NCBI RefSeq assembly: GCF_016097555.1
Contig: NC_054706.1
Coordinates: 52,053,590-52,117,589 of the forward strand
Source: Gigantopelta aegis
Lineage: Eukaryota; Mollusca; Gastropoda; Neomphalida; Peltospiridae
Direction of reading: 5' to 3'
DNA length: 64,000 bases
Of the stretch, positions 24,051 to 47,933 are shown piece by piece; position 1 is the stretch's first letter; the number at the start of each line of letters is the position of its first letter. The notes below the pieces were generated by a model. The model was given only the letters and a program-made list of their open reading frames with translations. It had not been told where the DNA came from and ran no database searches. The translations under genes and the position numbers were made by a program.

Positions 24051-25272
24051 AATAAATACATTTATAGATTATTTCATTTTATTTTATGCTATTTTAAGCA
24101 GTTTGTATTGCACAAAAGCCTCTTGCTTCGGACTAGGACACTCGACCCGACAGAGCTCCGTACACAGGTGTTGACAGATGTTGATTGTAACCAGTTGCAA
24201 ATTCTGGGTCCTTTGTTTTAATTGGAGTGTAATACATTGATGGCTCTCTAAACCAAGAATGGTGCTATCGTTAATGTCTGTGTAATCTCTTGACCGACTC
24301 AGCGACTTTGACAAATGTCTAGCCTAGTGGCAGTCGATTGACACTACTGTAGGTCCGACTTCAGTGACTGGCGATATACTTAGGCAGACTTTAAAATCAC
24401 AAACGTCTGAAACACCAGACCACTATTGACCACTATTTATTTATTATTTTAAATCATGCACGAGATACCGATGTCTGGGCTGGCCGGTCCGCTTGACCGA
24501 TAGGAATTTGTTCCAATAATAGAAATGAACAGGTGCTTCGGACCGACAAGAATGACAAAAGTGGGACCGGCAAACGCGCGTTTTAAAAAAATAATTTCGG
24601 TCTCAGAGTTCGAGAATCGGTCCCAGACCGGGAAAAAAGGGCTTTTCCCCATCCCTGCAGTTCCCACACCTATTTTTCAAATTCCCTTGATCAACCAGTG
24701 ATACCAAACTTGAATGTTTAAAGACTATTAAAAATAAATACTGGACAACATCAAACAACGAATGGTAGAACTTCTATCTTGTGAAGGTTTAAATTTGAAC
24801 CATTCTTGAAAGTAGCAGTCTTGCAGCAGATATAAGTGATGATAATTATTTTCCTGGAATAAAATATTCCAGCTGCAGTGCAATTTCATTGTAGAAGAAA
24901 TACGGAGTCCTGATTATTTGTTCAAACTGATCATTAGGGTTAGGGTTAAAGTCAGTGTTAGTGTTAGATTTAGAATAAAAGGTCAGAAGTACCTTATATT
25001 CTTGTATATAGGATGCAGTGGAAGATATATTGATGGAAAGAAATAAGGGAATACATCTTATTTGAGACAAAATTTAATGCACTATTAGAGTGTTTAGGCC
25101 TGTATAAAACACAGAGATGTAACGTAAGACTGAATGTCAGTACTATGGGTTTGAATGTCCGTAACACAGTTAATGTCCTGATTCCTGACTACCTGTTCTG
25201 GTAGCAGTCAATATTTTCTGGGGCAGGACGTAGCGCAGTGGTAAAGCACTTGCCTGATGTGCAGTTGGTTTT

Positions 25273-25905
25273 CAATGATAGCACTCGTCACTTTGGTTAT
25301 ATTAGAATGTTTCTACATTATTACTTTAATCTCCAATGATAGCACTCAAGTCACTTTGGTTATATTAGAATGTTTCTACATTATTACTTTAATCTCCAAT
25401 GATAGCACTCAAGTCACTTTGGTTATATTAGAATGTTTCTACATTATTACTTTAATCTCCAATGATAGCACTCAAGTCACTTTGGTTATATTAGAATGTT
25501 TCTACATTATTACTTTAATCTCCAATGATAGCACTCAAGTCACTTTGGTTATATTAGAATGTTTCTACATTATTACTTTAATCTCCAATGATAGCACTCA
25601 TCACTTTGTTCATATTAGAATGTTTTTACACCATTACTTTAATCTCCAACAATAGCACTCGTCACTTTGTTTATATCAGAATGTTTTTACATCATTACTT
25701 TAATCTCCAACAATAGCACTTGTCACTTTGTTCATATTAGAATGTTTTTACATCATTACTTTAATCTCCAACAATAGCACTCGTCACTTTGTTTATATCA
25801 GAATGTTTTTACATCATTACTTTAATCTCCAATGATAGCACTTATCACTTTGTTCATATTAGAATGTTTTTACATCATTACTTTAATCTCCAGTGATAGC
25901 ACTTA
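25273..25905. repeat. minisatellite, ~10.5 units of 63 then 61 bp
   Basis: The first five units are almost identical 63-mers (CACTCAAGTCACTTTGG variant). The later units are 61-mers (CACTCGTCACTTTGTT variant) with more differences. The 63-bp part is a multiple of three and gives a spurious repeated 21-residue reading. Confidence 0.95.
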
Positions 25906-26010: not shown

Positions 26011-26144
26011 TCATCTATAATGATTGTTTATTGCCCTTGCTATAACAAGTTTCCTGATTTCTGTTGTCCCGGCTCCGATTTCGTACAGTTTCGCATCACG
26101 TAATAATCTTCCAGTTGGATAATCATTGATGTAACCATTTCCAC
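26011..26144 (-). CDS. IVD: IVD exon 12 (C-terminus and stop)
   Basis: Begins by completing the Gly codon of the glycine-rich signature [13 protein letters not shown] and continues [19 protein letters not shown] to INNHYR, then TGA at 26013-26011 on the minus strand. The minisatellite begins about 100 bp beyond the stop. Confidence 0.96.
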
Positions 26145-27112: not shown

Positions 27113-30100
27113 CTTTAACATGCCCCTATACCACTAAGGTTTCGGGCATGTCTGTCACATGCCAGGTCTCTGGATAGCCAGTGGTGTGGTCTGGGACAGA
27201 ACAGCCTTTGAAATACCAGTTATGGGACAACAAATAGGATGGGGAAAAAATTCAAGTCCATTGAGGAATATCGATCCTGCCACCCATCGCACCTCAGGTG
27301 AGTGCTCTACAATTGAGCTACATCCCTTTTTATAACAGAATTTCAAAACTAATAAACTTTTAAGACTGCATAGTAGTTGAGTGGTATTTTCTTGCACAAA
27401 ATAAATATGTTATAAAATATGTAATGGCATATCCAGTGACAGAAGCTATACAGTTTTCCAGTTCTCTCAAAATATAAAAAATATGTATGGGTTTCACAAA
27501 AAAACATTTCAATGTGGGTGCGTACTGACATGTGCCATATTTACCCACCTAATATTTGAATGGCATCAAGCGCCATTTTTGTTGCTGCTTCTGCTGTGTA
27601 TAAAATAACACCAGCACAATCCTGAAATTAAATAATAAATAGTCAAACGTACTGTGTTCTAACTTTATAAAAAAAAAAAAAATCTCAAATTCATGTGGAC
27701 TCTAGGAACAAAAAGTAAATGATACAACATAATTGAGAATAGGATGTCATTTTCTGATCAATATCAGATGACAGTAAGTAATCAATGGTTGATTAGTAAC
27801 TTATTACATGTGTATTGAGTTTGAGTCAAATTAAATTCATTTAAAACTTTACACAAAATATTTAACTTTAAAATATATACAGACTTGTATATATTCTGGT
27901 TCACAAGGTCTTCATTCCACAAATGGAGACAACTATTAGTACCATATATTACAACAACTATTAATACCATATATTACATGTATTTTTCCTTTAAAAGTCT
28001 AGTAATTAGTTTATTACATAAATTGTAAAAAGACATTCAAAGCCAGGCCTCTGAAAATTGCGAGAGCAATAGTTTCGTTTGCATGTTGCTCGCGTAAATA
28101 TAGTTTGCGTAACACATTTTTCATTTGCGCATTTAATTTATGACATCATTTACATGTTCATGATGGGTTACCTAAAACAAAATGGGTTATCTGAATTTGT
28201 TTTTGCATAACCCATAACGGGCGTACACAAATTTTTAATTCTCAGAAGCCTGAAAGCACAAACGATTTAAAACACTTTGTTAGATGATTACAAGTTGTAA
28301 TAGAACAAGTGAAAAAAAACGATCTTACACTTGGGTGTCTTTCTCCACGGTCAAGCGCCCGTGCAACGTTGTACACGTATGACCGACTGACGCTCATCTG
28401 GGTGTACATGTCCGCTAGCTTGGCTTGGATCATCTGCAGGATAAAACGAGGCATCTCAGTCTTACACTGAATATATTTTCTAACGTATGTTTTTATATTT
28501 TAAAACAATTCTTTTTGTTGTAAAATATTTTATCTTTTCAAGTGAGTACTATGGAGTGAGCGTGTAACATACTATTAATCAAAAGTAAAAAGAAACCCAC
28601 TGCTGCCACTGGTGTCAATAAAACAGCATGGCATTTCCCCGAACAGGACAGTACATGTCATGGCCTTTAATGTACTATAACATATTTAACAGTAAATATA
28701 TTTTTTTCTAAAGATTTACATTAAAATTATTTTTCTTCCAATTTAAAAAAAAACAATTGCCTGTTTTTTTTAAATCAGAAAGTAAAACTGAAGAAACATT
28801 CTCAGGGCTTGTAGAATTTTTATAAAATCCACTAGCCATGGGATCAGTGATTTAAAACATTTACTAGCCACGATTAAAAAATCACTAGCCCTACTCTAAG
28901 TTAATACAATTTTACTAAATAATAGTAATAATCAGATATGTCACCTAAAGAGGGAGAGAGCTTAAAAATACTAACACTAGGGGTGGGGGCAGGATATCCA
29001 TATCTACAAAGCAGACTTAACTGCAACATTTTAACAAAAAAATAAAATAATAATAATAATAATAATCACTAACCGTCGGGCATGGCAATAGTAGTTATTT
29101 ATTAGCCAAACATTGAAAATCACTAGCCATGGCAGTGGGGCTACCATAATCTAGAAGCCCTGATTCTGTTCCATTTCAAAGTGGGTTTCTTTTTTAGCCA
29201 TGTACAGGAAGCATACCACCATTCTACTCTCAAAGATCTCTCGTACAACTGGATACTCATTCAAACAAAATTGAGTCATTCGAAAAATACAAACTCACAC
29301 ACACACAAACAACTCACTTGAAAATTTCCTATTTTTGTGCCAAAGCATTCCCTGTGGTTAGCATACTCAAATGCTACATCACAACATGCTTGCATAATTC
29401 TGAAATGAAAATAATCCATAAATATATTTCTGTAGTACTGTAATTAAATAATAGTTACATTTAACAAAATATAAACATCACTCACATCTGTCTTAAATGT
29501 AAGTGGCCAGCTATGGGAGTCATCAAACATGATCATTTAAGACAAGTGGCCACAAATTACAGGTTACTTTGCCCTTTTTTAGTATCTTAATTTGTTCTCA
29601 TTTTTAAAACTGTCTGTAGTGGATATTAATGGATGTACTTTAAATTACGACAATCTTCGATATGTCACATTGCTACTGAATAATGAAATAACTGGACATT
29701 CATAAAGTTAAAGTTTGTTTTGTTTAACGACACCACTAGAGCACATTGATTAATTAATCATTGGTTATTGGTTGTCAATTCTGACAAGTAGTCATCAGAG
29801 GAAAATCACTACATTTTTCACAGACAGGAAAGCACATACCACAGCCTTTGACCAGTTGTGGTGCACTCATTGGAACGAGAAAAATACCGATCAGTTGAAA
29901 TGATACACAGAGGTGGTTCGATCATGAGATGGAGCACTCAACCGACTGAGCTAAATCCCACCTTTTGGAAATTCTTAATATGACAATTTGGAAATAATTG
30001 TTTTGTTGAAAGCTGCACAGTTGAAAGACTTTTATAGCAAAATTTTTTCATCAAATATGACAATTATTAAAATTATGTAAAGTTAAATGAAATTAGAAAC

Positions 30101-33100
30101 AAGAGTACAGGTAAGGTACATGATACGCCTGTCAGAAGTTTGATGGAAAACCATATTTATATTAATGAATATGTTACAGGTATGATTCAATTCTGATTAT
30201 GTGAAATGTTTGCAATGGTAAACAGTCCTGACTTTTTCAAAGGCTAAACAAGATTTTCCTATGATGTTCAGAATATAGACAAATTATTTCATTTATTTGT
30301 ATCACAGTGACCGTATAATTGTGTGCGACACACCATCATCCCAAGTTGTTCCTACATGTGAGGTTTGATGGTCCTGTATGCATCTGTATGCAAGATGTGA
30401 TCTGAACAAGGATTTACTGTAATGTGCAGTAGACCGTGAAGAATAGGTCACAGTGACCTAGTAATAGTACGCGACTCATTGCCACCCCAAGTTGTTCATA
30501 CATATGAGGTTTGATGGTCCTGTATGCATCTGTATGCAAGATATGTTCCAGACAAGAATAAGTTAACAGACGGACGGACATACAGACATATGGATGGACA
30601 ATGCCATACCATAATACAACCCATCAAAGATGGGCATATAAAAAGGATTTAGAAAAACTCTAATACAGTTCTAAATAATAATGACCTTTCCTTAGGGGAC
30701 ATTCAAAAGATGGAAGGAGTGTGCAGTTGAATGATTCACTTGGTGAACTGAAAGACATCCATTGAAGGATTCATGTGTTAAAAGTAATTGGAGATACTTT
30801 AACTTTCAGAACAAGACTTTGACAAAGGTTAAATAGATTTTTAGAAACTTGCAAATTCATCATAAAATATATCCAGGATGTAGCAAGATGATGTCTTTAA
30901 ATAATGGGACCAAGACACATGTGGAAATGTGATCCTCTATATTGAACAACAAAAAGGAAGAAGGAAGGAAGGAAATGTTTTATTTAACGATGCACTCAAC
31001 ACATTTTATTTATGGTTATATGGCGTCGGACATATGGTTAAGGACCACACAGATATTGAGAGAGGAAACCCGCTGTTGCCACTTCGTGGGCTACTCTTTC
31101 CGATTAGCAGCAAGTGATTTTTTATATGCACCATCCCAGAGACAAGGTAGTACATACCACAGCCTTTGTTACACCAGTCGTGGTGCACTGGATGGAACGA
31201 GAAATAGCCCAATGGGCCCACCGACGAAACAACAAAAAATATATATATATTTTACTATCTATTAGTTTCTTAACACTAATAATTTAGTAAATGGACTGTC
31301 AAAGTAGGCCTAAAATTTTCAAAAGACACTGAAAAAATTAAAACTAACAGGATTCAATCTGAATAATTTTAAATAAAGTAACAAAAAAATAAATAATAAT
31401 ATTTGCATTTTTTTTCTATTTAGTATAGAAAATTCAATCAAACATTAATCAGACTTTAACCACATTTTACAGCAATCCGATGGTTCGGCATAGAACTTCA
31501 TCCATCTGCCACTATAATGATGCACTGCACACAGGACAAACTTACCCAACACATCCAGCTGACAATACACATCGTTCAATATCCAGCCCCGACATCAACA
31601 CATAAACACCTTTGTTCTTTTTCCCCAACATGTTCTCCTCTATAATTAAATACAAACACAAGGGTTCCAGGAGTGTTGTGCAGTTTGGTACTCAAGCTTA
31701 TAGGACTTTTTTCAGCTCATACATTTTTGTGGGATTTATTAACTTTCTATTTTTTTAACATTATGACCAATGTTTTCAAAGCTGAAGACTGTAAATCATG
31801 GAATTAATGTGAGTAAGATATTAATGCAGAAAATGTGTCTGATGTACTATTTGACAGTGTATTGACACATATTTTTAACCAATAACACCACCAAAAGAAA
31901 AAGTCAACTAAATTAAAGACAAATAACAAACAAATGTTAACACAACTGATGTGTGTATCTATTAGAATGAAAGTATTATTTTAATGTAATAATGTAACTA
32001 ACAAGATTTAAAAAACACTTCAAGAAATGCATTCTGGACAAATGAAATCAAAAGACCATGAGTTGTTATTCACACTATAAGTAGATTTCCTATGTTGTTA
32101 GTTCCACCCCTTGTCAATTATGTGGTGCTCTGCATAAAAAATGGAGGAAATCACTATCAACTAATAAAACATGTTTCCAGAGGTCTGACTATTAAAAAAG
32201 TTTATTTGTTTTGTTTAACGACACCACTAGAGCACACTGATTGATTAATTAATTAATCATCAGCTACTGGATAACAAACATTTGGTAATTCTGACAAACA
32301 GTCATCAGAGGAAACCCATTACATTTTCTTAATGCAGCAAGGGATCTTTTATATGCATTTTCTCACAAACAGGAAAACACATACAGTTACCATGGCCTTT
32401 GACCAGTTGTGGTGCACTGACCAGATGTGGTGCACTGGTTGGATTCTGACTATTAAAACAAATGCCAACATTTTGTTTAATCGTTGTGAGATAAAACTGA
32501 AGTAAATTTATTGAAAACGGCTAAGCATTTCACGTTTGCATTTTAAAAAAAAAGTAAAAATAAAAGTTGCATTTACCAGACACATTAATAAAAATATACA
32601 TTTTAGTGTGTACCTGTCCCAATTCCCAATGCATTAATATCAGGACACATTATTTTCCTTATTTACAGTATAGTTGTTATTCTCAGGTTCCATTGTGCAG
32701 TGAACTGAAGTGGAGATTTGGATGTCATATAATTGTTGGAAAATGTGTAAAAGAATGGAAAAGGCGAGAATTCGATTAAAATTGGAGTTATTCACACAAC
32801 TCTGCATGGATAAGGATCATTTGGTTGGGAAACACTGATCTATGGGAACATGGGGCCATATTTTCTGTTTTCGAAGATATCTTAGCGCTACGATATCTTA
32901 AAACTGCCGTAGGTTAAGACATCACCATGATGTATATTGTAGTGGTTTTACAATATCGTAGCACTAAGACAGCTTTGGAAATCTGTAGCCAGAAAAGTTA
33001 GTTTGTTTTGTTTAACGACACCACTTGAGCACATTGATTAATCAATCATCGGCTATCGGATGTCAAACAGTTGATAATGCGGACATGTAGTCATCAGAGG

Positions 33101-36100
33101 AAACCCGCTACATTTTTCCTAATGCAGAAAGGGATCTTTTATATGCACTTTCCTACAGACAGGAAAGCACATACCACCGCCTTTGTCCAGTTGTGGTACA
33201 TTGGTTGGAATGAAAAAAAAAACCAATCAGTTAAATGCATCCACCAAGGAGGTTTGATTGTGTGATGCGAGCACTCAACAGACTGAGCTAAATCCCACCC
33301 CCTGTAGCCAAAAATCTTATAAACTAAATTGTCATCAAAATTGTTTTTGTAATGCCACAAATCAATGTTGCTTAAAAGGTGGATTTTAGGTGCAGTAGTA
33401 GGAATTTGTATATAGCGAGATACAGCAGAAAAATATGACAGAGAAACAAACAGCTGACCCAAGATGGGCATCCACAATGTTGAAAGGTGGATTTTAGGTG
33501 CAGTGGTAGGAATTTGTATATAGCCAGATTTAGCAGAAAAATATGACAGGAAAACAAAAGGCTCACCCAAGAGGGGCAGACGCACCAAGACCTCGTTCAA
33601 GGTCAAGTCCTGACATTAACACATACACACCACGATTTTCTTCCCCTAGAAGATTCTCCACTGCCAACAACAAAAATGGCATACCGTGTCATAAAATAAA
33701 TATTGGAGTATATATAGGAGATAATGGAACCTGAGAAATTCAACCATTACAAGCAACAACATATCTATTTCATAATTCAATTATAAACTGTGACAAACAA
33801 ATATTGTGTCCCATAAACATCAACCATAAATTATGAATAACAGAAATAGCATGTCATAAATAGGATTCTAAGTAGACAATAAAGTTAAAAAGTAGCTATT
33901 AATAAATAGTAACATCATAAAAAAGTTGATGTGTGCACATTTGAGCTTATTTTAATTGCTTACAGAAATATAACAGCAGCATTTATAGTAACCTATTATT
34001 GAGCATTAGCATTTATACTTTTTTGACAGTTAAATATTATTTGTAAATAGTTACATTTTGTAGAACTGTACACGATTTATAAAACCCTGTATGATTTACA
34101 CACCTGGAACTTCACAATCTTCAAAAATCAATTCTGATGTGTTGGATCCACGCATTCCAAGTTTATCCAACTTCTTGCCTTGTTGGAAGCCTGGCATTGA
34201 CTGCATCAATTAAACAAAACATTGTGTGTCTGTGTTTGTATTTAGTTATTTGTAATAATGTCACTAGGTTGAATTAACTATCGATGCATTGCTATCGAGG
34301 CAATGACTATCGCAATATATCGATAGTTCGATGTATTGTTACACTACTAATCACGACTGGTATATCAAAGGCCGTGGTTTGTGCTATCCTGTCTGTGGGA
34401 TGGTGCATATAAAAGATCCCTTGCTACTAATGGAAACAATGTACAGGGTTTCTTCTCTAAGACTATAATTAAAAAATGTTTGACATCCAATAGGCGACAA
34501 TTAATAAATCAATGTGCTCTAGTGGTGTCGTTAAACAAAACAAACTTTTCTTTTTAATACTACAGTAAAGTACGTTTAGAACGAACACGCTTATAACAAA
34601 CTACCGGTTAGAATGAACTGATTGTAAAGTCCCGATTTTCTCCCCTATATATTAGTAATACATTTTAATGTATAGAACGAACTATGTATAGCGAATTAAC
34701 TGTTAAAACGAACCAATTTTGTGGTCCCAAATAGTTAATTCCAGTGTAAATAAGTGTTTACATAACGAACCGTGAATACCGGAAGCATTACGTATCAAAC
34801 CAATCAGTGTAAAACGCTGCAAAGCCGTGGGATCGACCGCACGACCGCACTAAAACAACAGCCTAAATAACTTTTGTTTGTATGGACTTGGGAACAGGTA
34901 TCAATTAAGGGATTAAGTCACTAATTATACCGGAACCGTTACGTATCAAACCAATCAGTGTTAACGGACAGCTGAGCCGTGAGATCAACCGTACTCCAAA
35001 AACAGTCTGACACGTTCAACTCAATATATATATACAATGATATTAATCAGCGGTAATTAATGGGATTCTCTTTGTTTGTTATAAATCCGTGTCAGTTTTT
35101 CGTTCAGTATGCAATCATGACGGACACGAAAACATCACGCAAAAGAAAAGCGCTCGATCTAGATGTGAAATTTCAAATCGTTGCAGCTGTTGATCTCGGA
35201 CAAAAATCAAAGAAAGACATAGCAGCTGAGTTCGGGATTCCCAAATCCACTCTCAGTACCATCTTGAAACAGAGGGAAACGATTTTATCAAAATGTCAAT
35301 CTTCAGAATTCAACACAGCTAGAAAACGAATTCGCACGTCCGAATTTCAAGATGTCGACGATGCTCTCTTTTTGTGGTTTTGTGACGGGAGCATTGTTTA
35401 CAGAATGGGTGAAAGATCTAGACAAGAGCATGAAAAGGCAAAAAAGAAAAATCCTTTTACTAGTCGACAACTGTCCAGTGCATCCGAAAGTTTCCGGATT
35501 AACCAGTATAACACTGGCTTTTTTGCCCCCGAACACTACCTCGAAAATCCAGCCGATGGACCAGGGAATAATCCCAAACGTAAAAGAGAACTATCGACGA
35601 GAGATGATGAGTGACATCTTCAAGGCATTCGACAGTCAACAGGAGCACTCAGTTTCCATCTTGACGGCAATCAACACAGCCCATCGTGCTTGGCGTCACG
35701 TGACCTCATCGTGTATCGTGAACTGTTTTGCAAAGGGTGGGTTCAAAAGTGTTGCGTGTTCTGAGAGTTCTGACGACGAAGACGACAACACCCCGTTAGC
35801 AAATCTACAGACAGTGTGGAATGAACTCGTGAGAGCCATGCCAGTGCCAGATGGTTATCGGAAAACGAGACGGCCACAGTGATTCTGAACCAGAGGACGA
35901 TACACAGGAGCCACCCGAACAGCCAACGCCCACAGCAGTTGAAACGCACAAGGCACTCGAGACAGTCAGACTGTTTTTTCAGAGCAAAGGAGATATTCGA
36001 TTGCCAGTATTTGACAGCATTGCGGACATTGACTCGGCATTAGAAGTTATGCGTCCAACGCTAAGTAAACAAACCACGATTAGTGATTACGTGATGAAAC

Positions 36101-39100
36101 GTGATTAGGTACATGTAATTCACTAAACTCTTTTGATGTGATCTTTCAGTAATGTTTTGTTGTATTTATTGATTGTAATAAATGATATATTTTTTATAAA
36201 TGTCTTATAATCACCAAGGCATTTTTTATTTTTTTTACTATTATATTGAGTTCAAAATTCAAAATGGCCGACTTTCGGAATAAAAATTACCAACTTCTGC
36301 AAATGTGTACAACGAACTACTGTTATAACGAACCAATGAAGCTGGTCCCTTGCAGTTCGTTATAAGCGTACTTTACTGTAGTTCAAAAATTACAGCTGTT
36401 ACAATTTACTGGACAGATGAAACAATACTTCATGACAAAAGTCCTGTCTTATATGTCCATCTAATGGCAAGTGTGGAAGTATATACTGCTCTATCACTGA
36501 CTCAGGGAGATGACATTTGATACATTGCTACCTTCAGTGATAAAGTTACAATCCTTAATAAACAATCTTCACACTTAAGTAAAACAAATAATAAAAAATT
36601 ACCTTTTCTATCAAAAAAGCACTAATACTACGGGCTGGCTGGTCAGAAGACAATTCTGTTTTAGTGTACACAACCAACACATCTGCATCGGGTCCATTTG
36701 TAATCCAGAACTTGTTGCCATTTAATACATAATGATCTCCTAAAAATTTAAAAATAAAGAAAATTAAGCTATATCACATTGTACGTTTAAAAACAATTTC
36801 TTTTGGATGGCATTTATTTCAATTTCAATCATCAGAGGCATACAAATCATATTATCATGTATCGATTTTGTTCACCAAAACTTAACTCATCATTCTGACA
36901 GTGAACTTTATATTTTGATGTATACATACTGTACTGAAAAATAAAATAGTTATATGGCAGAAAAACGTCTTGGACTACAGCTAACATTTTTCTTGTATTA
37001 CTAAATAAAATATTTTCAGTTTCAGAGTCTTGGCAACGGTTTTCAAAATGACATACTTAATGATTCATACCCTTTTTCTCTGCCTTCAGTTTCATGGACA
37101 CAACATCAGAACCAGCATTAGCTTCACTCATTGCTAAAGCACCAATATGTTCTCCACTAATAAGCTGATAAAAAATAAAAAAATATTCACATTATCATTT
37201 TCCATATCTCATATACATCATATATGTGTGTATATATATTCATAAATTTCAGTGTTTAAAAAGCATTTTAATTAACCGTAGATAAAAAGGAAAAAAAGGA
37301 AATGGGTTTACTTTATTAGTTTTGTTCAGGACATTTTAATGGGTGAAAGTCGGAATGAGAAATACAACATCTAACTTTTATGGCCTAAGAAAAGATGTTT
37401 TATTGATGCAAGTTTCCAACTGTCAGTACTCAATTAAAACAAGTTATATATTACATGTATACATGTGTGTGTATATTTTTTCTTTCTGTATACAGAAGAA
37501 TGCAACTGATGTATTAATATGACCTCAGAATATTTAATAAAACATTTGCTTTAAACATCCCTAACAATAAATGTTTTGCTGTCTGGTCAGACCCACGCCA
37601 CTAACAACTTGCCGGTAGTATGGAAGTACAGTAGGTGGTTTTAAGCAGGGCTTTAGATTGCATCAAAGTCAAGGTGATTAATGTTGTGCCCAAAATATAT
37701 ATGCCCAAAATAATTACACCCAAATTAAGTACAAACATGCTGACCTCAAAATATTTCACCTCAAAACCACTGAAATATTAAGTTTAATTAGATTAAAATA
37801 ACTTGAAATGCATTTCTGAATATTGACAACTCTACAGCAGCTGTTAATGACAGTACTAAACTAAAACAACCTTCCTGCGCTCAGAAAAGACAAAAGTCCC
37901 TATTGTGTTGGATTTTTCGTTAGTATCATATTTCCATACACGCTGATATTTTGTTGTATTTTCTTATACATTTTTTGTTGACTCTGTGTACTGGCCAACC
38001 ATCTTCTCTTGGTAGTATTTAGAGGCTTAAAAGGTTGGCTAATACACAGCTATATATGGTAAAGCTGATGGGAAATGACAACAATGTGGCCATAAGAGAC
38101 AAACACCTGGGCCCATACTTATAAACCATTTAGAGTCACTCAAATCACTGATGATATTACACACATGCAATTTGTGTGACATTGTCATGATGTTAAAGTA
38201 TCAAACTTCAGAGTTTTATAAGCACCAGGCCTGTCACAGTTTGAGAGAACAGGACTAGGAGGTGGACAGTGAAAGAAGTGGAAAGTTAGGTGGAACTGCC
38301 AGTTTGGGAAAACTAAAATGAGATTCAACAGTGAGAAAGGAAAGTGGGCAGTGTAATTTAAAAAACAAAAACAATATTTTGCTGCAAAAAATGGAGCCAG
38401 ACCTTAGGAAGGTATTTTTCTTTCTGTTTCTCGTTCCCATTTCTGACGATCTGGTTGACACACAGGTTGGAATGAGCCCCGTAACTAAGGGCGATTGCCG
38501 CACTGGCCCTCGACATCTCTTCCATCACTAGCACATGGTCCAGGTACGCCATCTCTGATCCACCATATTTACCTAGCAATAGAGATTAAACAGTATCCAA
38601 CTTAGTTATAAAAATAACACAAATACAGGTATATAGGCCTACAGGAAAACAGCTGAAGAACAATCCATTATGCTTCAAGGTCCAGCAATCCATTATGCTT
38701 CAAGGTCGGACTATGGACTAGTTCTGGATGCAAAGAAAATTTGGTCAAATTAGCTTCTGAACTTCAAAAATTGCAGAAACCCAGTTATTTTCTAACAAAG
38801 TATCAACTATTACACACATGTAATTAACTATAATAAACTAGATATTTTAATTTCATAAAGCATCAAAAGATATTTAAGCTGTCATTCGCTGAATTGTCAA
38901 AGTTGAATATTAGCAAAAATAAAATGTCCACTGAATTCATGAAACAATAATAAAGTTGTATTAAATTACTAATTTTATTTGTTTAGTTTCACCGTTTATT
39001 AATAAAACATTGAAGTACATGTTTTATATGTATGTTTAAATGTTTATCTACAGAACACACCTATCCTAATGACAGTAACATTTATTTTGACTGAAATATT

Positions 39101-42100
39101 TGTTTTTAAAATTCAATTACCAAGTCAAACATGACGATGATTTTTTCAAACTGTTCAGTATGCAATTTTGTTTTTAGTTTGCAAAATGATTTGGAGGTGG
39201 TGGGGCATTTTTTGCTGTTGATTTTTTGGGGTCTTTTGTTGGGGGGGGGGGTTGGAAGGGGTAATATTACATGTATTAATCATTCTTACTTGGTGCCGTA
39301 ATACCATGGAAACCCATTTCACCACATTTTTTCCAAAATTCCTGAAAAAAATGGGAAAAAAGGACAATTTGTAATCCATTAAACCAAGACATAACTTAAC
39401 ATGCGTATACATGTACTTATTTTTTCAATCGCTCTAAAACAAATTACAAAAGTTTTTGGTGGATATCACTTAAAGGTAGAGTAAACTCAAACAAGAGATT
39501 TATGTGTTGGAAGATGCATACCCGGACCACCAACACATACTGACACTTTAACAAATGAAAAATGCGTAATTTTAGAGTTAATAAAAAACCATGATTATTC
39601 ATGCTAACTGGGGGCAGCCATTTTGTTTTGTTTTTGTGACGTTCGGTGCTATAGCTTGGGGCGAAGTGGCATCAGCTCCATCCATCTGCTCTATGCACAG
39701 TGTAAACAAACACTCTAATTTACGACAAGGCGCTTCGCTTTCATCAATCTGACTTGTAAAACAACATAAATGACTTGATAGTATATTAAACTATTTAACT
39801 AAATATATTTCAATTTGCATCAATAGAACGAAATGGAGTTATAGTATTTTTCTTTTTTTTTAAATCCGAAGAAAAAAATGCATATTATTAAGCCTATCGG
39901 TATGCTACGTTCGAGCAAAAACGACCATTCACTATACCCAAGTGATAATTTTCTTTTCTTTGGGACTACGTAATTGGTCAGTTTTGTGATTTTAGATGGG
40001 AAAGTCTACTTAATCAAGGGTTTTACAGAATTACTTACAATAATAAAGAAAGAAAGAAATGTTTTATTTAATGACGCACTCAACACATTTTATTTACGGT
40101 TATATGGCGTCAGACATATGGTTAAGGACCACACAGATTTTGAGAGGAAACCCGCTGTCGCCACTACATGGGCTACTCTTTCCAATTAGCAGCAAGTGAT
40201 CTTTTATTTGCGCTTCTCACAGGCAGGATAGCACAAACCATGGCCTTTGTTGAACCAGTTATGGATCACTGGTCTGTGTAAGTGGTTTACACCTACCCAT
40301 TGAGCCTTGCGGAGCACTCACTCAGGTTTTGGAGTCGGTATCTGGATTAAAAATCCCATGCCTCGACTGGGATCCGAACCCAGTACCTACCAGCCTGTTG
40401 ACCGATGGCCTAACCACGACACCACCGAGGCCGGTCTACAGTAATAAAGCAAGACAGCTGATCGATTACGATTTTTTAGTGTGTCTAGACACAGTGTCTG
40501 GGTACCGTCTAAATATACACCTGCCAATCAGGAACCACAGGCACAGGCCACGGAAAGAAAATACCAATTAACTAAGAAAACATATCAATTATCATTTCAG
40601 TACGTGGGCTAATTTATGTACAAACCATAATACAGTTATTTCAACACTTTGACAATGGTGGTTTATTTTGTATTAAAAGTAATATATAATTGTTGCTGGC
40701 TTACTGGGATGACTATTATTACAGAATATTGCAATGCATCCGCAAAAATCAGGGATGTTTTGTTTCTTCAGTTCGAAGACTAATTCCTGACGTGACACAT
40801 TAGGTATTACGTAACCACCAGCTCGCCAGAGGGCGTATTCACTGGGATGGTACAAAATGGCTGCGCCCATTATATATAATAGCCGTTACATTTAACCTTT
40901 TTATTAATTAACTATACGATTATACTTGTTGATATTAAGCAATAATATGCAATATATATCGTTGAATATGCATACCAGGTCAAATGCCCTGATTGTCCCC
41001 TCCTTTAAGGATTTATCCAGGAATTTTTGCCATGGTCCCATGTTTGATGAGATTCGGAAAAGTAGCGTGTGAGTATATCCTACTTGGGATATATATTTTT
41101 TAGTTCACTGAATGATCTTAATATGCAATACACCACTGGTAAATTAATTTATTACAAGAGACATACTTAAATATATATAATATAAATAAATATTGAGAAT
41201 TTTTATTACATAAATTTGGAATGTTCAGTTCCACTTTCTTTTGGGAAGGGGACTATGTTCGGATCCACGGAACGCCTAGATAAATCCATGTCACTAGCAC
41301 TTTCGTCAGTTAAGATATCTGAGAGTAGAGTAGATTTAAATTTAGACACTAAATTATACACAGTGAAAGTCCTCTAAACCGGACACTCTCGGGACCAAGT
41401 AAAAAGTCTGGTTTAAAGAGATATCTGGTTTAGAGAGGTTCTCTTCTCTTTAAAAGAGACCATGAAAAAATTTCCAGTTTACAGAGGATCCGGTTTTGAG
41501 AGGTTTCACTGTACATTTACACGTATGTACACTGTATAATGCTGGTAAAAGACAGTCTGTCGACACAACTATGACTGCAGTCCTCGAAATTCGTGGCGGC
41601 AATCGGCAATGCTGTCGCAAAAGCTATCGCAAAATTGATTTGCGACAGCATTTCAAGTTCTCCTCAATTAATATAAAGTGGTTTATTCCGGTATAGAAGC
41701 GTACTGAAGTAAAGATGAGATGTCATCTTTTAGCATATTATTACTGCAGTGGATCATAGATGAATAATTTTGACAGTATTAATCTTTTCTTTAAAATTGC
41801 CGCCATAATTTATTTGCGACGGCAAAAAAATGCTGTAGCAGACTTGTCCAAATTTCAAGCGCTGTGACTGGACACTTGTAACATATAATTTACCAAATAC
41901 TGTGCAAAAACAAGTTACATCGGCCAATTCTACTAAAATTAAGACATCTACAGACTGAGATTGACTTGTAAACTGGCCACTGTCATCCACTATGTCAATT
42001 CATTTGTAATTTGTTTCAACAATCATTGCAAGATTAGTTAAATTTTGCTCAGGAAGAATTAATTCAGTGCATGTAAACTGAAGCTTTTGACACAAACCCT

Positions 42101-45100
42101 TCGTTCTTTGAAATCATCGGTCTTGTCAATTTCTGCTGCCTTTGGAGCCAGCTCTTTCTGGACAAACTGAAATACACTCCGTCTCAGCTGGAAAATAAAT
42201 CAGACAACATGTTTGAAAATTCATAATCATTGTTACACTGAAAACTAATTATAAAGCCACATGATTCAGAACAGCTTACTTTCATAAATGGTTCTATACT
42301 CAATCATAAATTTGTTATTAATTTGTCATATCGTAGCATCAACCCAACATTTTTAGAATACATAAGATGATTATATAAATAAGTAATTGTAATAACAACT
42401 AACTGCATGCTCTAGTCATCATCTTATAAAGGGACAGTCCTGAGTTTGCTACAATTTTTAAGATGTTATCGACTAACAGACTTTTTAACAACTGTAATTA
42501 CATATCAGATATATTTTTCTGCATAACATATTAGTAGCTGTATATTAAACATGTTTCTGATCGTTCTTATATTTCTACTAGGTTCAATTTCATTTTATTT
42601 CCTAAAAAAAAATGTTTTTGTAAAATACAAAATTATTTCAAGACAAAATCCAGTTTGGGCTTCTTACAAATATTAATATGACCAGAAACAGATTAAATAT
42701 ACAGACACTGATATTTTAAACAGGAAAATATATTTAATGTGTATTTTTAGACATTAAAAAACAATTTCATTAGTCGAAAACATCTTACAATGCAGGAAAC
42801 TCAGGACAGTCCCTTAACATTGTTTACACGTTTAATAAATGTGTATTCCTTTGCTAAAACCGGCCTCGGTGGCGTCGTGATAGGCCATCGGTCTACAGGG
42901 TGTATACTACCAAATCAAATCCCATAGACGACAATAGTAACATATGTGGCTAAAACTCCTACCTGCAACGTATCAATCGACATAAACGCCACGGATATAA
43001 ATACTACCACCCCTCACCCTTAAAGTGAATCACAAAAAAGTGGGTGTCAAGCTGCTTATTTCTGAGATAACGGGTAGCGTCTATGACTACCCTAGTTCCG
43101 CACAAAATTTGAGTACTTTTTTTTACAGGTACCCCATACATGTTCCAAGCACAAGGCTACTTGACACAGTGGTACTAGATGAAATAAAATTGCATACATT
43201 TTTAGCCCAGATGAAACTAATTTTTTTTACAACCAACACACTCACATTTATAACCAATCACAGGACTTGTGGTGTTCACTTCTCTATCAAAAGTTCGGTG
43301 CACCTCGAACTTTGACCCAGCCGGAAGTTATTTGGTTTAGTACTACCTACAGGCTGGTAGGTACTGGGTTCGGATCCCAGTCGAGGCATGGGATTTTTAA
43401 TCCAGATACCGACTCCAAACCCTGAGTGAGTGCTCCGCAAGGCTCAGTGGGTAGGTGTAAACCACTTGGACCAACCAGTGATCCATAACTGGTTCAACAA
43501 AGGCCATGGTTTGTGCTATCCTGCCTGTGGGAAGCGCAAATAAAAGATCCCTTGCTGCTAATCGGAAGAGTAGCCCATGTAGTGGCGACAGCGGGTTTCC
43601 TCTCAAAAATCTGTGTGGTCCTTAACCATATGTCTGATGCCATATAACCATAAATAAAATGTGTTGAGTGCGTCGTTAAATAGAACATTTCTTTCTTTTC
43701 CTTTGCTAAGAAACATGAATAACATTGTAGATCAAAGTATTGATACAATTGACTGATGATTTCAGTATGCAAGTGTTCATGGATTATAGGTTGTGCCAAA
43801 AAGAAGTGTGCAATATGAACAATGCTCATTTTAGGGTGGGATGCTTCCTTTGAACAGGGTTCAAATTTCACCAAGGTACCGTCAGCAATTGCTGTAGTTG
43901 CCCTGCTTAATTGCTATTATGCTCCAAAAATATTAAGGCGTAGATGGCAAGAAAAATGCTGTGGTGCCTAATTACCTCATTTGCCCTTGCCCTTCCCATA
44001 CATTCCATGCTGTATATATGTATCCTTCCTTGTCCCATAGCATTGTTTTACTGGTCATGTCAAATAAAAAGTAAATTTTTTTAGACCTATATTTCTTGGA
44101 AGTTTTGGTTTAAAATTTATTTGCGCTACAACTTCTGTCAACAATAACCCAGGTGGCTACACTGCAGGAGACCACATCATGGACGTACTGGTCAGTATGT
44201 GTGATCATGTGACCATGGAACAAGGTCAAACCCCTCCTTACCTGCTCAAAGTGAACTTTTTTCAATATATTATACTGGGGAGAATGACTCGACCCACCCA
44301 TCCTACCAACACCCCTTGAAGAAGGTTCCGACTTTAAAGCCTTTTTTGTGCTACATCAAACCCATTACTGGTGGTTGTTGAAAAGTAACTTCCTTTTTTA
44401 AAAAATATAATAATATTTGTTGTTTTTCTAAAACCAGCATTTTATTATTTAGCAATGACACAAAATGTAACATGATGCTTGCTTGTTGACACATGAAGTG
44501 TCAGGTCGGTTATACTTGGATCTAAAACAAAATGTGCTAAAATGCCCATAAAAAATAACGTTATTTACATTGATTATAATACTATTATTTCAAGTGGATG
44601 CTATTCATTACTATACTGTACAGGTACATGTAGGTATAAAGTTTAAACACAACCGTCTATCACATTTCTACTTTTATTAAACAGCATCCATATCCAAAGG
44701 CCATGGTATATGCTATCCTGTTTATATAAAAGATCCCTTGAGCACTGCTAATTGAAAAAAGAGTAGTCCATGAAGTGGCGACAACAGGTTCCCTCCCTCA
44801 ATATCTGTGTTGAGCGCGTTGTTAAATAACACATTTCCCTCTTCCTTCTTTCCGTATCCAACAAATTGCATAGGCTAGAGTCCAATGCCATAAGGTGAAA
44901 TCATTTTTGTCCAAGAAACTTGATAGAAAATAAGTTGCCTTTATGCCTCTCTTTTGAAGGAAAAGTTTGCCTTGGTGCCCCTCCAACTTGCCTTGGTGCC
45001 CTAATTTTTGTTATTAAACCGAAGGCAACACTTGCTGTGACCCCCCCCCCCCCCCCCCCCCCCAATTGAAATTTGACCCCTGTTTGTACCTTGACAAAGA

Positions 45101-46641: not shown

Positions 46642-47933
46642 ACACAACTGCGTTGCCCAAGTTGACAGATTCGGTAGAGGGAGTGTCATGATGTGGGGAG
46701 CCATCTCATACACCGGCAAAGTGAACTTGTGTTCGTACAAGGCAACCTGACAGCTGTACACTACCGGGATGAAATTCTTCACTGTCACATGCTTCCCATT
46801 TTGGATCGACAGAGAGAACTCTATCAGCAGGACAATGCAGGGCCGCATACGGCAAATGTAACAATGGATTTCCTACAGAATGAGAACATTAATGTGCTGC
46901 CATGGCCATCAAGATCACCAGATCTCAACCCCACTGAACATCTATGGGACAAACTGGACAGACGTGTACACCAGCGTGACCCGGAGCCTCAGACGCTTCC
47001 GCAACTGTAACATGCACTGCAGGAAGAATGGGCTAGGATTCCACATGCCCAGATTCAGACTCATTCAGTCTATGCCAAGGAGATGTCGCGCAGTGATTGC
47101 TGCTGCTGGTGGCCACAAAAGGTACTGATTTCAAAGCCCTCGTGCGACGTTGTTTGGTGATGAAAACGCCTCCACTGCCGTCAGTCCATAGCAAGAACAT
47201 TGTTACATACTCATGTCAAATTTGACTGTGATAACGAAATTATGCCACTTTGTATTAGGTTACGTCTCTGTCAATAATAACAAGAGAAACATCGTTATTT
47301 CCACACAACATGAGATCATTGCTTATCCACGCCAAAACCGATACCACGAGGATACTGGATTTTCCAGTTTCAAGTGGCATATTTGTTTGCATCTTCCCGT
47401 TGATGGATGCCAATAGAGAATGACAAGAGTTCTCAATATTCCTCAGATCTATATCAGTGCAGGCTTCTGAAAATTGTGAGAGCAATGGTTTCATTATAAT
47501 GTCGCTCACCTAGTATAGTTTTAGGAACCCATTTTTTTGTGTGAATTTATCACATCATAATCATTTGCATTGTCATGTCATTCTGAACCTAACCTGAAAT
47601 ATAGTGTATAGAATTGGGGGAAATTTTGAACTCCTACCAGAGAACATTATATTTTTATTATTTATTTTATTTATAATTATTATTTATGCAATATAATAAA
47701 CAGCGCTACGTTATTTGCCTTTGACTTCAGTTTGAGAAAGCCCCAGTTATAAAAATAATTTAGAGGTCAATAACTTTTGTTTAAATTTATACCTGCTTCT
47801 GTTCTTCATTCAGACCAAAGAGACTATCATCAATGGGAAAATAGGACAACGATCTCGTAGTTGTCACTTTGACATAATTAGTCAACTTTAAGTTTCGACC
47901 GAAAACTCGGGCTACTTTCCTCAGAGCTGCCAT
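26011..47933 (-). CDS. IVD: isovaleryl-CoA dehydrogenase, mitochondrial (complete)
   Basis: FAD-dependent dehydrogenase of leucine catabolism, oxidising isovaleryl-CoA to 3-methylcrotonyl-CoA in the mitochondrial matrix and passing electrons to ETF. Twelve coding positions (47793-47933, 42098-42187, 39290-39341, 38403-38572, 37071-37164, 36603-36739, 34104-34200, then 33567-33660 or 31546-31639, 29318-29399, 28329-28433, 27549-27621, 26011-26144) join in phase to 1269 nt, 422 residues plus stop, the usual family length. The first ~33 residues carry many Arg/Lys and no acidic residue, a mitochondrial presequence. The acyl-CoA dehydrogenase signatures are present: [10 protein letters not shown] (162-171) and the glycine-rich [15 protein letters not shown] (377-391). 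IVD hallmarks are the helix LD(I/L)ER near residue 282, holding the catalytic Glu reported for human IVD, and [20 protein letters not shown]. Introns are full of SINEs and MITEs. Confidence 0.96.
26434..26885 (+). mobile_element. 452-bp TA-flanked element, copy 2
   Basis: Starts CAGGGTGTATACTACCAAAT, ends GGTTTAGTACTACC, flanked by TA on both sides. Ends are partly inverted copies of one another. It lies in IVD intron 11. Confidence 0.75.
27054..27109. repeat. (GA)n microsatellite
   Basis: 56 bp, inside a degraded SINE core (26930-27330) in IVD intron 11. Confidence 0.9.
27549..27621 (-). CDS. IVD: IVD exon 11
   Basis: Encodes [20 protein letters not shown], then IQIL. Phase 0 to 1; acceptor TAATTTCAG, donor G|GTGGGT. 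Confidence 0.95.
28044..28252. mobile_element. MITE with CAGGCCTCTGAAAATTG ends
   Basis: Left CAGGCCTCTGAAAATTGCGA, right AATTCTCAGAAGCCTG. Relatives at 45129-45352 and, partial, 47458-47600. It ends 77 bp from IVD exon 10. Confidence 0.7.
28329..28433 (-). CDS. IVD: IVD exon 10
   Basis: 35 codons, [20 protein letters not shown] onward to DRGERHPS. Phase 0-0, acceptor TTTATCCTGCAG, donor AGT|GTAAGA. Confidence 0.95.
28802..29162. mobile_element. MITE with TCAGGGCTTGTAGA ends
   Basis: Left TCAGGGCTTGTAGA, right TCTAGAAGCCCTGA; interior has several CACTAGCCATGG units in both halves. Confidence 0.65.
29318..29399 (-). CDS. IVD: IVD exon 9
   Basis: Encodes [20 protein letters not shown], then TKIGNFQ; the leading base completes the Gly codon left by exon 8. 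Phase 2 to 0. Acceptor TTTCATTTCAG, donor CAA|GTGAGT. Confidence 0.94.
29708..29962 (-). repeat. SINE family B copy
   Basis: Tail GTTTAACGACACCACTAGAG; core; head with TTTAGCTCAGTCGG (reverse complement of CCGACTGAGCTAAA). Confidence 0.75.
30310..30640. repeat. dispersed repeat with two internal ~150-bp units
   Basis: The phrase CCCAAGTTGTTC, GAGGTTTGATGGTCCTGTAT and GCATCTGTATGCAAGAT occurs twice (30350 and 30487), followed by a GACGGACGGACATACAGACA-type tract. Confidence 0.6.
30958..31226 (-). repeat. SINE family A copy
   Basis: Tail with GAAGGAAGG at 30958 and core; the head is cut at CCAATGGGCCCACCGACG. Confidence 0.75.
31546..31639 (-). CDS. IVD: IVD exon 8, version A (distal, probably mutually exclusive)
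   Basis: 94 nt, same phases as version B, acceptor AATTATAG and donor TTGG|GTAAGT. It encodes [20 protein letters not shown], then [12 protein letters not shown]. The catalytic-position Glu is kept; the CVLSAG segment is closer to the usual LVLAGG than version B. The two versions match at 18 of 32 residues. Confidence 0.9.
32198..32446 (-). repeat. SINE family B copy with duplicated core end
   Basis: CCAGTTGTGGTGCACTG occurs twice at 32403-32438, a small internal duplication. Confidence 0.7.
32998..33298 (-). repeat. SINE family B, full copy
   Basis: Complete from tail to the head CAGACTGAGCTAAATCCCAC. It lies 270 bp downstream (gene direction) of IVD exon 8B. Confidence 0.75.
33376..33589. 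repeat. 107-bp tandem duplication covering the 3' end of IVD exon 8B
   Basis: Copies start at 33376 and 33483 (AAGGTGGATTTTAGGTGCAG). The second includes the donor and last exon bases; the first carries a decayed version with TTGG|GTCAGC instead of TTGG|GTGAGC. Confidence 0.85.
33567..33660 (-). CDS. IVD: IVD exon 8, version B (proximal, probably mutually exclusive)
   Basis: 94 nt with acceptor TTGTTGGCAG and donor TTGG|GTGAGC, phase 1 to 2. It encodes [20 protein letters not shown], then [12 protein letters not shown]. It keeps the LDLER motif with the catalytic-position Glu and the PLG ending usual in IVD, but has GLGASA where IVD usually has LVLAGG. It has no stop codon and no damaged splice site. 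Confidence 0.88.
34104..34200 (-). CDS. IVD: IVD exon 7
   Basis: Encodes [20 protein letters not shown] and then [12 protein letters not shown]. It ends in phase 1 and donates to either version of exon 8. Donor G|GTGTGT. Confidence 0.95.
34348..34553 (+). repeat. SINE family B (plus orientation)
   Basis: Core TATATCAAAGGCCGTGG to tail GTGTCGTTAAACAAAACAAA; its end lies 8 bp from the Tigger target site. Confidence 0.75.
34563..36378 (+). mobile_element. Tigger/pogo-type DNA transposon, internally deleted
   Basis: Terminal inverted repeats start CAGTAAAGTACG and end CGTACTTTACTG, flanked by TA at 34561-34562 and 36379-36380, the pogo/Tigger target. The element is 1816 bp. The 5' half has a CENP-B-like helix-turn-helix (from ATG 35117), the 3' half part of the DDE domain. 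It inserted just 3' of a family-B SINE inside IVD intron 6. Confidence 0.85.
35117..36108 (+). pseudogene. broken Tigger/pogo transposase
   Basis: The N-terminus carries a CENP-B/pogo helix-turn-helix ([20 protein letters not shown], then [13 protein letters not shown]). After [11 protein letters not shown] an internal deletion near 35384 joins directly to [14 protein letters not shown] in another frame, removing the CENP-B DNA-binding half and the first catalytic Asp. The second Asp motif [11 protein letters not shown] remains, with [14 protein letters not shown] following. A second frameshift near 35855 precedes the C-terminal [12 protein letters not shown]. It cannot make an active transposase. 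Confidence 0.85.
36603..36739 (-). CDS. IVD: IVD exon 6
   Basis: Encodes [20 protein letters not shown] and then the middle beta-domain to AFLIEK. Phase 1 to 0; acceptor TTTTTAG, donor AAG|GTAATT. Confidence 0.95.
37071..37164 (-). CDS. IVD: IVD exon 5 (FAD-binding signature)
   Basis: Encodes [20 protein letters not shown], then [11 protein letters not shown], which contains the first acyl-CoA dehydrogenase signature. Phase 0 to 1, donor G|GTATGA. Confidence 0.95.
38403..38572 (-). CDS. IVD: IVD exon 4
   Basis: Phase 1 to 0. It encodes [20 protein letters not shown], then the conserved [20 protein letters not shown] and KEKYLPK, residues 95-151. Donor AAG|GTCTGG. Confidence 0.94.
39290..39341 (-). 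CDS. IVD: IVD exon 3 (52 nt microexon)
   Basis: Phase 0 to 1, encoding [17 protein letters not shown]. Acceptor TTTTTTTCAG, donor A|GTAAGA. Confidence 0.92.
40050..40438 (-). repeat. chimeric SINE (family-C head, shared core, family-A tail)
   Basis: In minus-strand reading: head CCGGCCTCGGTGGTGTCGTG and CTGGGTTCGGATCCCAG, then AAAGGCCATGGTTTGTGC core, then family-A tail. Sister copies at 42863-43696 and 56145-56513. Confidence 0.75.
41361..41512. mobile_element. ~150-bp MITE with CAGTGAAA ends
   Basis: Left CAGTGAAAGTCCTCTAAACC, right GGTTTTGAGAGGTTTCACTG. Confidence 0.65.
42098..42187 (-). CDS. IVD: IVD exon 2
   Basis: 30 codons, phase 0-0, encoding [18 protein letters not shown] and [12 protein letters not shown]; the first helix of the acyl-CoA dehydrogenase N-terminal domain. 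Acceptor TTTTCCAG, donor AGG|GTTTGT. Confidence 0.93.
42430..42818. mobile_element. TTAA-type MITE relative
   Basis: AAAGGGACAGTCCTGAGTTTG at left, AAACTCAGGACAGTCCCTTAA at right (inverted). Confidence 0.65.
42863..43696 (+). repeat. chimeric SINE interrupted by the 452-bp TA element
   Basis: Head at 42863-42895, interruption 42896-43347, then the rest from the second TA to the family-A tail at 43696. Confidence 0.8.
42896..43347 (+). mobile_element. 452-bp TA-flanked element, copy 3 (nested)
   Basis: Same termini and length as copy 2. Removing it and one TA restores the continuous SINE sequence GTCTACAGGCTGG seen at 56168, which defines both element borders. Confidence 0.85.
44697..44836 (+). 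repeat. SINE family A fragment
   Basis: Truncated core and tail: AAAGGCCATGGTATATGC to GTTGTTAAATAACACATTTCC, with an internal deletion. Confidence 0.65.
45041..45063. repeat. poly-C tract (23 bp)
   Basis: Pure C run in IVD intron 1. Confidence 0.9.
45129..45352. mobile_element. MITE with CAGGCCTCTGAA ends, second copy
   Basis: Left CAGGCCTCTGAACATTGC, right TTCGCAGAGGCCT; shares AATGGGTTA units with 28044-28252. Confidence 0.65.
45893..46156. mobile_element. MITE with CAGTGTTCGAAATAAGC ends
   Basis: Left CAGTGTTCGAAATAAGCAC, right TGCTTATTTCTATCTCTG; interior repeats of GGACAAGTAAAA. Confidence 0.55.
46567..46636. repeat. (TA)n microsatellite, 70 bp
   Basis: Immediately abuts the truncated Tc1 fragment; Tc1 elements target TA. 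Confidence 0.95.
46640..47128 (+). pseudogene. truncated Tc1-like transposase fragment
   Basis: The C-terminal half of a Tc1/mariner DDE transposase. [13 protein letters not shown] is followed by a frameshift near 46727, then [29 protein letters not shown], an in-frame TAA at 47008 and a frame-shifted end [16 protein letters not shown]. The spacing between the second Asp and the Glu is 34 residues (DD34E). The 5' half is missing and is replaced by a (TA)n tract. Confidence 0.85.
47793..47933 (-). CDS. IVD: IVD exon 1 (start codon, mitochondrial presequence)
   Basis: ATG at 47931-47933 on the minus strand. Residues 1-47 begin [13 protein letters not shown] and end GLNEEQKQ, the family-conserved start of the mature enzyme. 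Donor CAG|GTATAA, phase 0. Confidence 0.93.

Follow-up and report, generated by a model that had tools for sequence, protein, structure and literature searches.

A tandemly duplicated active-site exon, probably spliced in a mutually exclusive manner, in the isovaleryl-CoA dehydrogenase gene of the gastropod Gigantopelta aegis

The 64,000-nucleotide stretch of the Gigantopelta aegis genome analysed here (contig NC_054706.1, positions 52,053,590 to 52,117,589; hereafter the window, numbered from its first nucleotide) contains a complete gene for isovaleryl-coenzyme A (CoA) dehydrogenase, IVD. The gene lies on the minus strand, runs from 47933 to 26011, and comprises 12 coding positions, of which position 8 is represented by two exons, 8A and 8B (Table 1). 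All coding positions are collinear with human IVD by tblastn, and reading of the splice sites gives GT/AG introns with consistent phases throughout. Exon 1 would encode the transit peptide. Joined to the remaining 11 exons, either version of exon 8 yields a 422-residue open reading frame (ORF). With either version, the best solved match of the 91-residue span covering exons 7–9 is human IVD (E values of 1.1e-34 and 3.7e-34; PDB 1ivh, 8sgr and 9jq4).

Exons 8A and 8B are adjacent and in the same orientation, and encode residues 261–292 of the protein. Each is 94 nt long, enters in phase 1, leaves in phase 2, has no stop codon, and is flanked by GT/AG sites, just as described in the earlier note on this DNA, which had proposed a duplicated, mutually exclusive active-site exon. 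The two are identical at 60 of 94 nucleotides, and direct reading returns the same 18 of 32 shared residues that the note had counted. Because each exon is 94 nt, including both or neither shifts the frame; the note had argued this from length, and the products of double inclusion and double skipping do both reach premature stops. The versions differ by 0.31 nonsynonymous (dN) and 1.55 synonymous (dS) substitutions per site, and the resulting dN/dS of about 0.2, drawn from the few sites of 32 codons, suggests constraint on the exons since their duplication. Human IVD matches exon 8 at two places (tblastn E values of 5e-8 and 7e-8) and at no third place in the window, and seven exon-8 peptides (six molluscan and one from a beetle) likewise reveal no third copy in the 64 kb, the next best of the 30 best matches listed having an E value of 0.28. 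Open 94-nt segments between AG and GT in the right phases are common by chance, with 39 on the minus strand and 36 on the plus strand; a chance origin of the second exon is excluded by its homology, position and orientation.

The donor sites of 8A (gtgagc) and 8B (gtaagt) both resemble the common spliceosome type. One known mechanism of mutual exclusion is steric, acting where the intron between the two exons is very short. It is ruled out here by the 1927 nt between the two exons (31640–33566), and exclusion must thus come from the frame, from regulation or from RNA pairing; nothing convincing was found for pairing between the introns around exon 8 among the repeats listed there. A 99-nt tandem repeat (89%) occupies 33372–33578, and its copy nearer 8A (33480–33578) covers the last 12 nt of that exon and its donor; the farther copy has a donor-like gtcagc in place of gtgagc. 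A 19-nt AT-rich inverted match (95%) links 34231–34249, located 31–49 nt upstream of exon 7, with 31642–31660 in the polypyrimidine tract of 8B, and could reflect chance or a role in exon choice. A dispersed repeat is present in three to four copies in the introns around exon 8 between 29712 and 33219 (families D1–D3 and D6), the D2 copies sharing GTTTAACGACACCACT.

Listed IVD isoforms of other molluscs differ in the corresponding exon. Three protein searches, all with queries containing an A-type exon, retrieved 254 different proteins, a set biased towards A types (8000 proteins scored in one search, and 351 of 389 and 628 of 687 candidates accepted in the others, with the best 120 listed each time). 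Because the database merges sequences at 90%, it often conceals isoforms of a single gene, and the absence of a form from it carries little weight. First, isoforms X1 and X2 of Crassostrea virginica differ at 12 of 420 residues, all within 259–289, and those of Mya arenaria at 13 of 422, all within 261–291; in both species the two forms are present on equally long contigs. These differences fall in the counterpart of the snail's duplicated exon and lend comparative support to an exon swap. Second, A types, defined by GLG, TLG or GAG after the catalytic Glu-Arg, recur under the label X2 in Ruditapes, Mytilus galloprovincialis, M. edulis and Dreissena, with a B-type record (P0016) beside the A-type X2 in M. 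edulis; looser A versions occur in isoforms X2 of Haliotis asinina and H. rufescens (CLA and GLA) and X3 of Ostrea edulis (AVV). Third, the best of 351 accepted matches to 8A is Ruditapes X2, at 88% over 40 residues, 31 of which lie in the exon, and a search with Ruditapes X2 itself places Dreissena X2, C. virginica X2, Ostrea X3 and Haliotis asinina X2 next in line among 628 accepted matches. The 8A and Ruditapes A exons share 27 of 32 residues, compared with 272 of 350 in the remainder of the protein; agreement with 8A falls to 19 to 24 of 32 in the eight other A-type rows.

A further A-type protein, P0046, is a 414-residue ORF that nearly fills a contig of at most 1481 nt. As this leaves no room for introns, P0046 probably derives from a spliced A-type message of some animal; it falls with the molluscs in a 49-row tree, on a long branch and with unsure placement. 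The Ostrea edulis record (P0003) has an A-like exon with Val at the position of human L290, and its label, X3, suggests that further isoforms exist. Two insect IVDs, P0111 (Planococcus citri isoform X1) and P0068 (Pyrocoelia pectoralis), have Ala at that position, and the isoform label of the former means that insects may hold similar variation.

The age of the pair was approached with 50 rows, namely 8A and 49 proteins hand-picked from 181. The protein without exon 8 recovers family-level groups among the 49 and leaves deeper forks unresolved. The tree of exon 8 itself (39 of the 50 rows and 32 columns, leaving out Lymnaea for its extra residue and 10 further rows that were near-duplicates or on long branches) unites ten A-type rows across bivalves and gastropods with support of 98/85, and nine with 98/91 (98% ultrafast bootstrap), apart from the B-type exons of those species. 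Joint topology tests used 27 of the 50 rows, hand-picked to include all A types except the near-duplicate M. edulis X2 together with B-type representatives. Constraining Gigantopelta, C. virginica and Mya each to an A+B sister pair of its own costs 42.6 log units and has p values of 0.004 in the approximately unbiased (AU) test and 0.020 in the Kishino-Hasegawa (KH) test. A single duplication before the bivalve-gastropod split, retained since, is probably the better account, favoured by these 32 columns rather than proven by them; it would imply that several gastropods have lost the A exon or simply have no record of it listed.

The swapped exon encodes the heart of the active site. The available part of PMC12369846 identifies E286 of human IVD as the catalytic base and M280, D284 and R287 as CoA contacts. 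Both 8A and 8B keep M280, S281, D284, E286 and R287, with the Glu in the LDLER-motif helix where the earlier note had placed it, and D284, E286 and R287 are retained in all 18 rows examined, including ten A-type database rows, 8A and 8B; single A-type database rows have Leu at 280 (1 of 10) and Thr at 281 (1 of 10). The versions part immediately afterwards, where 8A has Gly-Leu-Gly, 8B has Cys-Val-Leu, and canonical proteins mostly have Leu-Val-Leu. Position 288 is thus Gly in 8A, Cys in 8B and mostly Leu in canonical proteins, and position 290 is Gly in 8A and Leu in 8B. Excerpts of PMC12369846 describe L127 and L290 of human IVD as narrowing the floor of the pocket into a bottleneck that would limit chains to C4–C6, and give Val at the L290 position of ACADM, which takes C6–C12. 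Human LCAD shares the base position with IVD, and its I295, four residues after the Glu and so the match of L290 by count, is among the cavity residues named in the accessible text of PMC10925408. The Leu equivalent to L127, as counted along the LSYGAHSNL motif, is encoded by exon 4, which both isoforms share.

Among the 254 retrieved proteins, a motif search gives the residue at the L290 position as Leu in 223, Phe in 12, Ile in 7, Gly in 7, Ala in 4 and Val in 1, the seven with Gly being six bivalve X2 isoforms and P0046. The Leu expected of an IVD at this position is present in 8B and absent from 8A; the 8A product is an IVD by descent, though perhaps not in its substrates. AlphaFold2 models of C. 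virginica X2 (A type) and X1 (B type) are alike except for the helix at 269–284, which is whole in A and broken at 275–276 in B; judged from these models, which inform on fold and not on pocket size, the A-type exon is compatible with the IVD fold.

The favoured explanation, to which we assign a probability of about 0.78, is that 8A and 8B are an ancient mutually exclusive exon pair in which 8B is the canonical version and 8A encodes an opened acyl pocket. Every transcript would take either 8A or 8B, and messages with both exons or neither, their frame broken, would decay. The 8B exon would keep the canonical helix and produce ordinary IVD, and the Gly at 290 of 8A would remove the side chain of one bottleneck Leu at the bottom of the acyl pocket. 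Since 8A retains the catalytic Glu and the CoA contacts and loses the L290 side chain, its product would be expected to be a competent enzyme that accepts longer or bulkier acyl chains or has altered kinetics. The pair would have arisen once, ahead of the separation of bivalves and gastropods. The reading of the earlier note, a mutually exclusive active-site exon whose isoforms may differ in the acyl pocket, fits and gains support from comparison, the X1/X2 differences of C. virginica and Mya lying inside the corresponding exon only. The key change in 8A would be its Gly at a published bottleneck residue. As for the note's caveat that one version might be missing or broken in relatives, the listed proteins are divided: 8A-like forms are found in bivalves, and looser ones in Haliotis, whereas only the B type is seen in eight gastropods (Patella, Physella, Pomacea, Littorina, Nucella, Babylonia, Aplysia and Lymnaea) in a database whose clustering hides isoforms.

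Those eight gastropods weigh against the favoured explanation, as do several other observations. The listed Gigantopelta aegis IVD (P0001) is identical to the 8B product at 422 of 422 residues and lacks 8A; it has no isoform label, forms a cluster of one sequence, and is the only version listed for the species. The X1/X2 labels in other species are presumably computed gene models, which may lean on homology. Gly at the L290 position occurs in no named gastropod besides Gigantopelta, the Haliotis X2 isoforms having Ala and the bivalve Ostrea X3 having Val. The available text of PMC12369846 is inconsistent on the effect of L290, which is associated with a wider space once and a narrower one elsewhere. 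In the topology tests, three separate duplications are not rejected by the Shimodaira-Hasegawa (SH) test (p = 0.0505); uniting all bivalve exons in one clade costs 26.9 log units and is not rejected (AU 0.055, SH 0.19); and none of the A+B pairings within a single species is rejected when imposed one by one (p = 0.108, 0.124 and 0.091). By plain identity over the 32 residues, five of nine A-type rows are nearer 8A, two tie, and two (M. galloprovincialis X2 and H. rufescens X2) are nearer 8B.

These phylogenetic results bear most directly on the alternative that bivalves and gastropods duplicated the exon independently, their A types then converging on small residues just past the catalytic Glu. 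The varied gate residue (Gly, Ala or Val), the SH value for three duplications, the AU and SH values for a bivalve clade, and the four of nine A-type rows that are not nearer 8A than 8B would all fit convergence; the union of A types across classes at 98%, the AU value of 0.004 for separate duplication in three species, and the clam isoform as best listed match of 8A speak against it, and we regard it as unlikely while giving it appreciable weight. Equally unlikely in our estimate is a catalytically weak 8A isoform that lowers or redirects IVD activity through mixed tetramers. The pair of glycines next to its catalytic Glu might make the helix less rigid; the base and CoA contacts are kept, and the corresponding helix is whole in the A-type oyster model. 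More doubtful still is that 8A is a relic in this snail, formerly used in molluscs and now rarely or never spliced. The unlabelled 8B protein is in keeping with a relic, as is Ala at human position 293 of 8A, where nine of ten A-type database rows have Gly, but a relic accords poorly with an open exon whose splice sites, phases and active-site residues are intact, with a closer resemblance to the Ruditapes A exon than the rest of the protein has, and with the low dN/dS between the versions. Least probable of all is that the pair is an off switch whose frameshift and message decay tune the level of IVD and not its chemistry: both frame-breaking products do stop early, but a pure poison exon has no need of active-site residues, D284, E286 and R287 are kept in 10 of 10 A-type rows, and the X2 isoforms on record span the full length of the protein.

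Table 1. Coding exons of the IVD gene in the window
Feature	Coordinates	Strand	Remarks
IVD coding exon 1	47793..47933	-	start codon
IVD coding exon 2	42098..42187	-	tblastn and splice sites
IVD coding exon 3	39290..39341	-	tblastn and splice sites
IVD coding exon 4	38403..38572	-	holds Leu equivalent to human L127
IVD coding exon 5	37071..37164	-	tblastn and splice sites
IVD coding exon 6	36603..36739	-	tblastn and splice sites
IVD coding exon 7	34104..34200	-	shared upstream partner, phase 1 at end
IVD exon 8A	33567..33660	-	derived version; Gly at human L290
IVD exon 8B	31546..31639	-	canonical version; Leu at human L290; version in P0001
IVD coding exon 9	29318..29399	-	shared downstream partner, phase 2 at start
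IVD coding exon 10	28329..28433	-	tblastn and splice sites
IVD coding exon 11	27549..27621	-	tblastn and splice sites
IVD coding exon 12	26011..26144	-	stop codon

Other elements lie in and near the gene. Intron 6 carries an insertion at about 34560–36380, with ends that by eye resemble inverted repeats and with overlapping plus-strand ORFs in different frames, 35060–35614 matching CENP-B_N and 35352–35882 matching DDE_1; we take it to be a pogo/Tigger-like element. Intron 1 contains a transposase remnant, an ORF at 46693–47010 with a DDE_3 match, and an ORF at 25257–25655 consists of head-to-tail repeats of about 21 residues each (VTLVILECFYIITLISNDSTQ).

No report of exon swapping in IVD was found among the papers listed for IVD or acyl-CoA dehydrogenase in connection with mutually exclusive exons, exon duplication or molluscs, in a search that left subscription journals mostly beyond reach, and the available part of PMC8659336 does not mention isovaleryl. 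Mutually exclusive tandem exons are already known; what sets the IVD pair apart is that the swapped exon bears the catalytic base, together with its apparent age. If the favoured explanation is correct, one gene has, for most of the history of molluscs, supplied an enzyme well known from human disease with two alternative active sites by exchanging the exon for its catalytic base. It then offers a natural test of chain-length determinants in acyl-CoA dehydrogenases at Leu290 and, beside COQ-2 and alternative oxidase, another exon-switched mitochondrial enzyme in molluscs, animals that endure extended periods of low oxygen. On this view, functional alternative exons may be overlooked when such genomes are annotated. 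More tentatively, the molluscan IVD gene may amount to two acyl-CoA dehydrogenases chosen by splicing, the 8A form having an open-bottomed pocket for longer or bulkier acyl-CoAs and perhaps also serving as an enoyl-CoA reductase under low oxygen, as part of a wider mitochondrial exon switching with COQ-2 and alternative oxidase that is older than the bivalve-gastropod split; we hold this wider proposal possible and well short of probable.

The nearest comparison is COQ-2, whose exons 6a and 6e, according to the available text of PMC7434440, are mutually exclusive in C. elegans, parasitic helminths, annelids and molluscs. As described there, COQ-2 resembles the IVD pair in being a mitochondrial-pathway enzyme, found in molluscs among others, with two exons, a canonical and a derived one, of equal length not divisible by three (134 nt in C. 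elegans), whose swap exchanges substrate-adjacent residues. It is unlike IVD in enzyme and chemistry, and its exon use and effect on rhodoquinone have been tested, whereas the IVD pair is known from sequence; in IVD, the catalytic base itself sits on the swapped exon. Alternative oxidase of Crassostrea virginica, in the accessible part of PMC5589949, is likewise a molluscan mitochondrial oxidoreductase with a duplicated exon (exon 10), one copy conserved and one derived, with changes around functional sites; there the duplicated exon is the last and responds to air exposure, whereas the IVD pair is internal. Exons 4a and 4b of OGDH, as given in excerpts of PMC7969005, are also mutually exclusive and retune a mitochondrial catabolic dehydrogenase, but alter its calcium sensitivity and not an acyl pocket. 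Human IVD, finally, is orthologous to the snail enzyme and has the same catalytic Glu and CoA contacts, and is unlike the 8A form in having Leu at 290.

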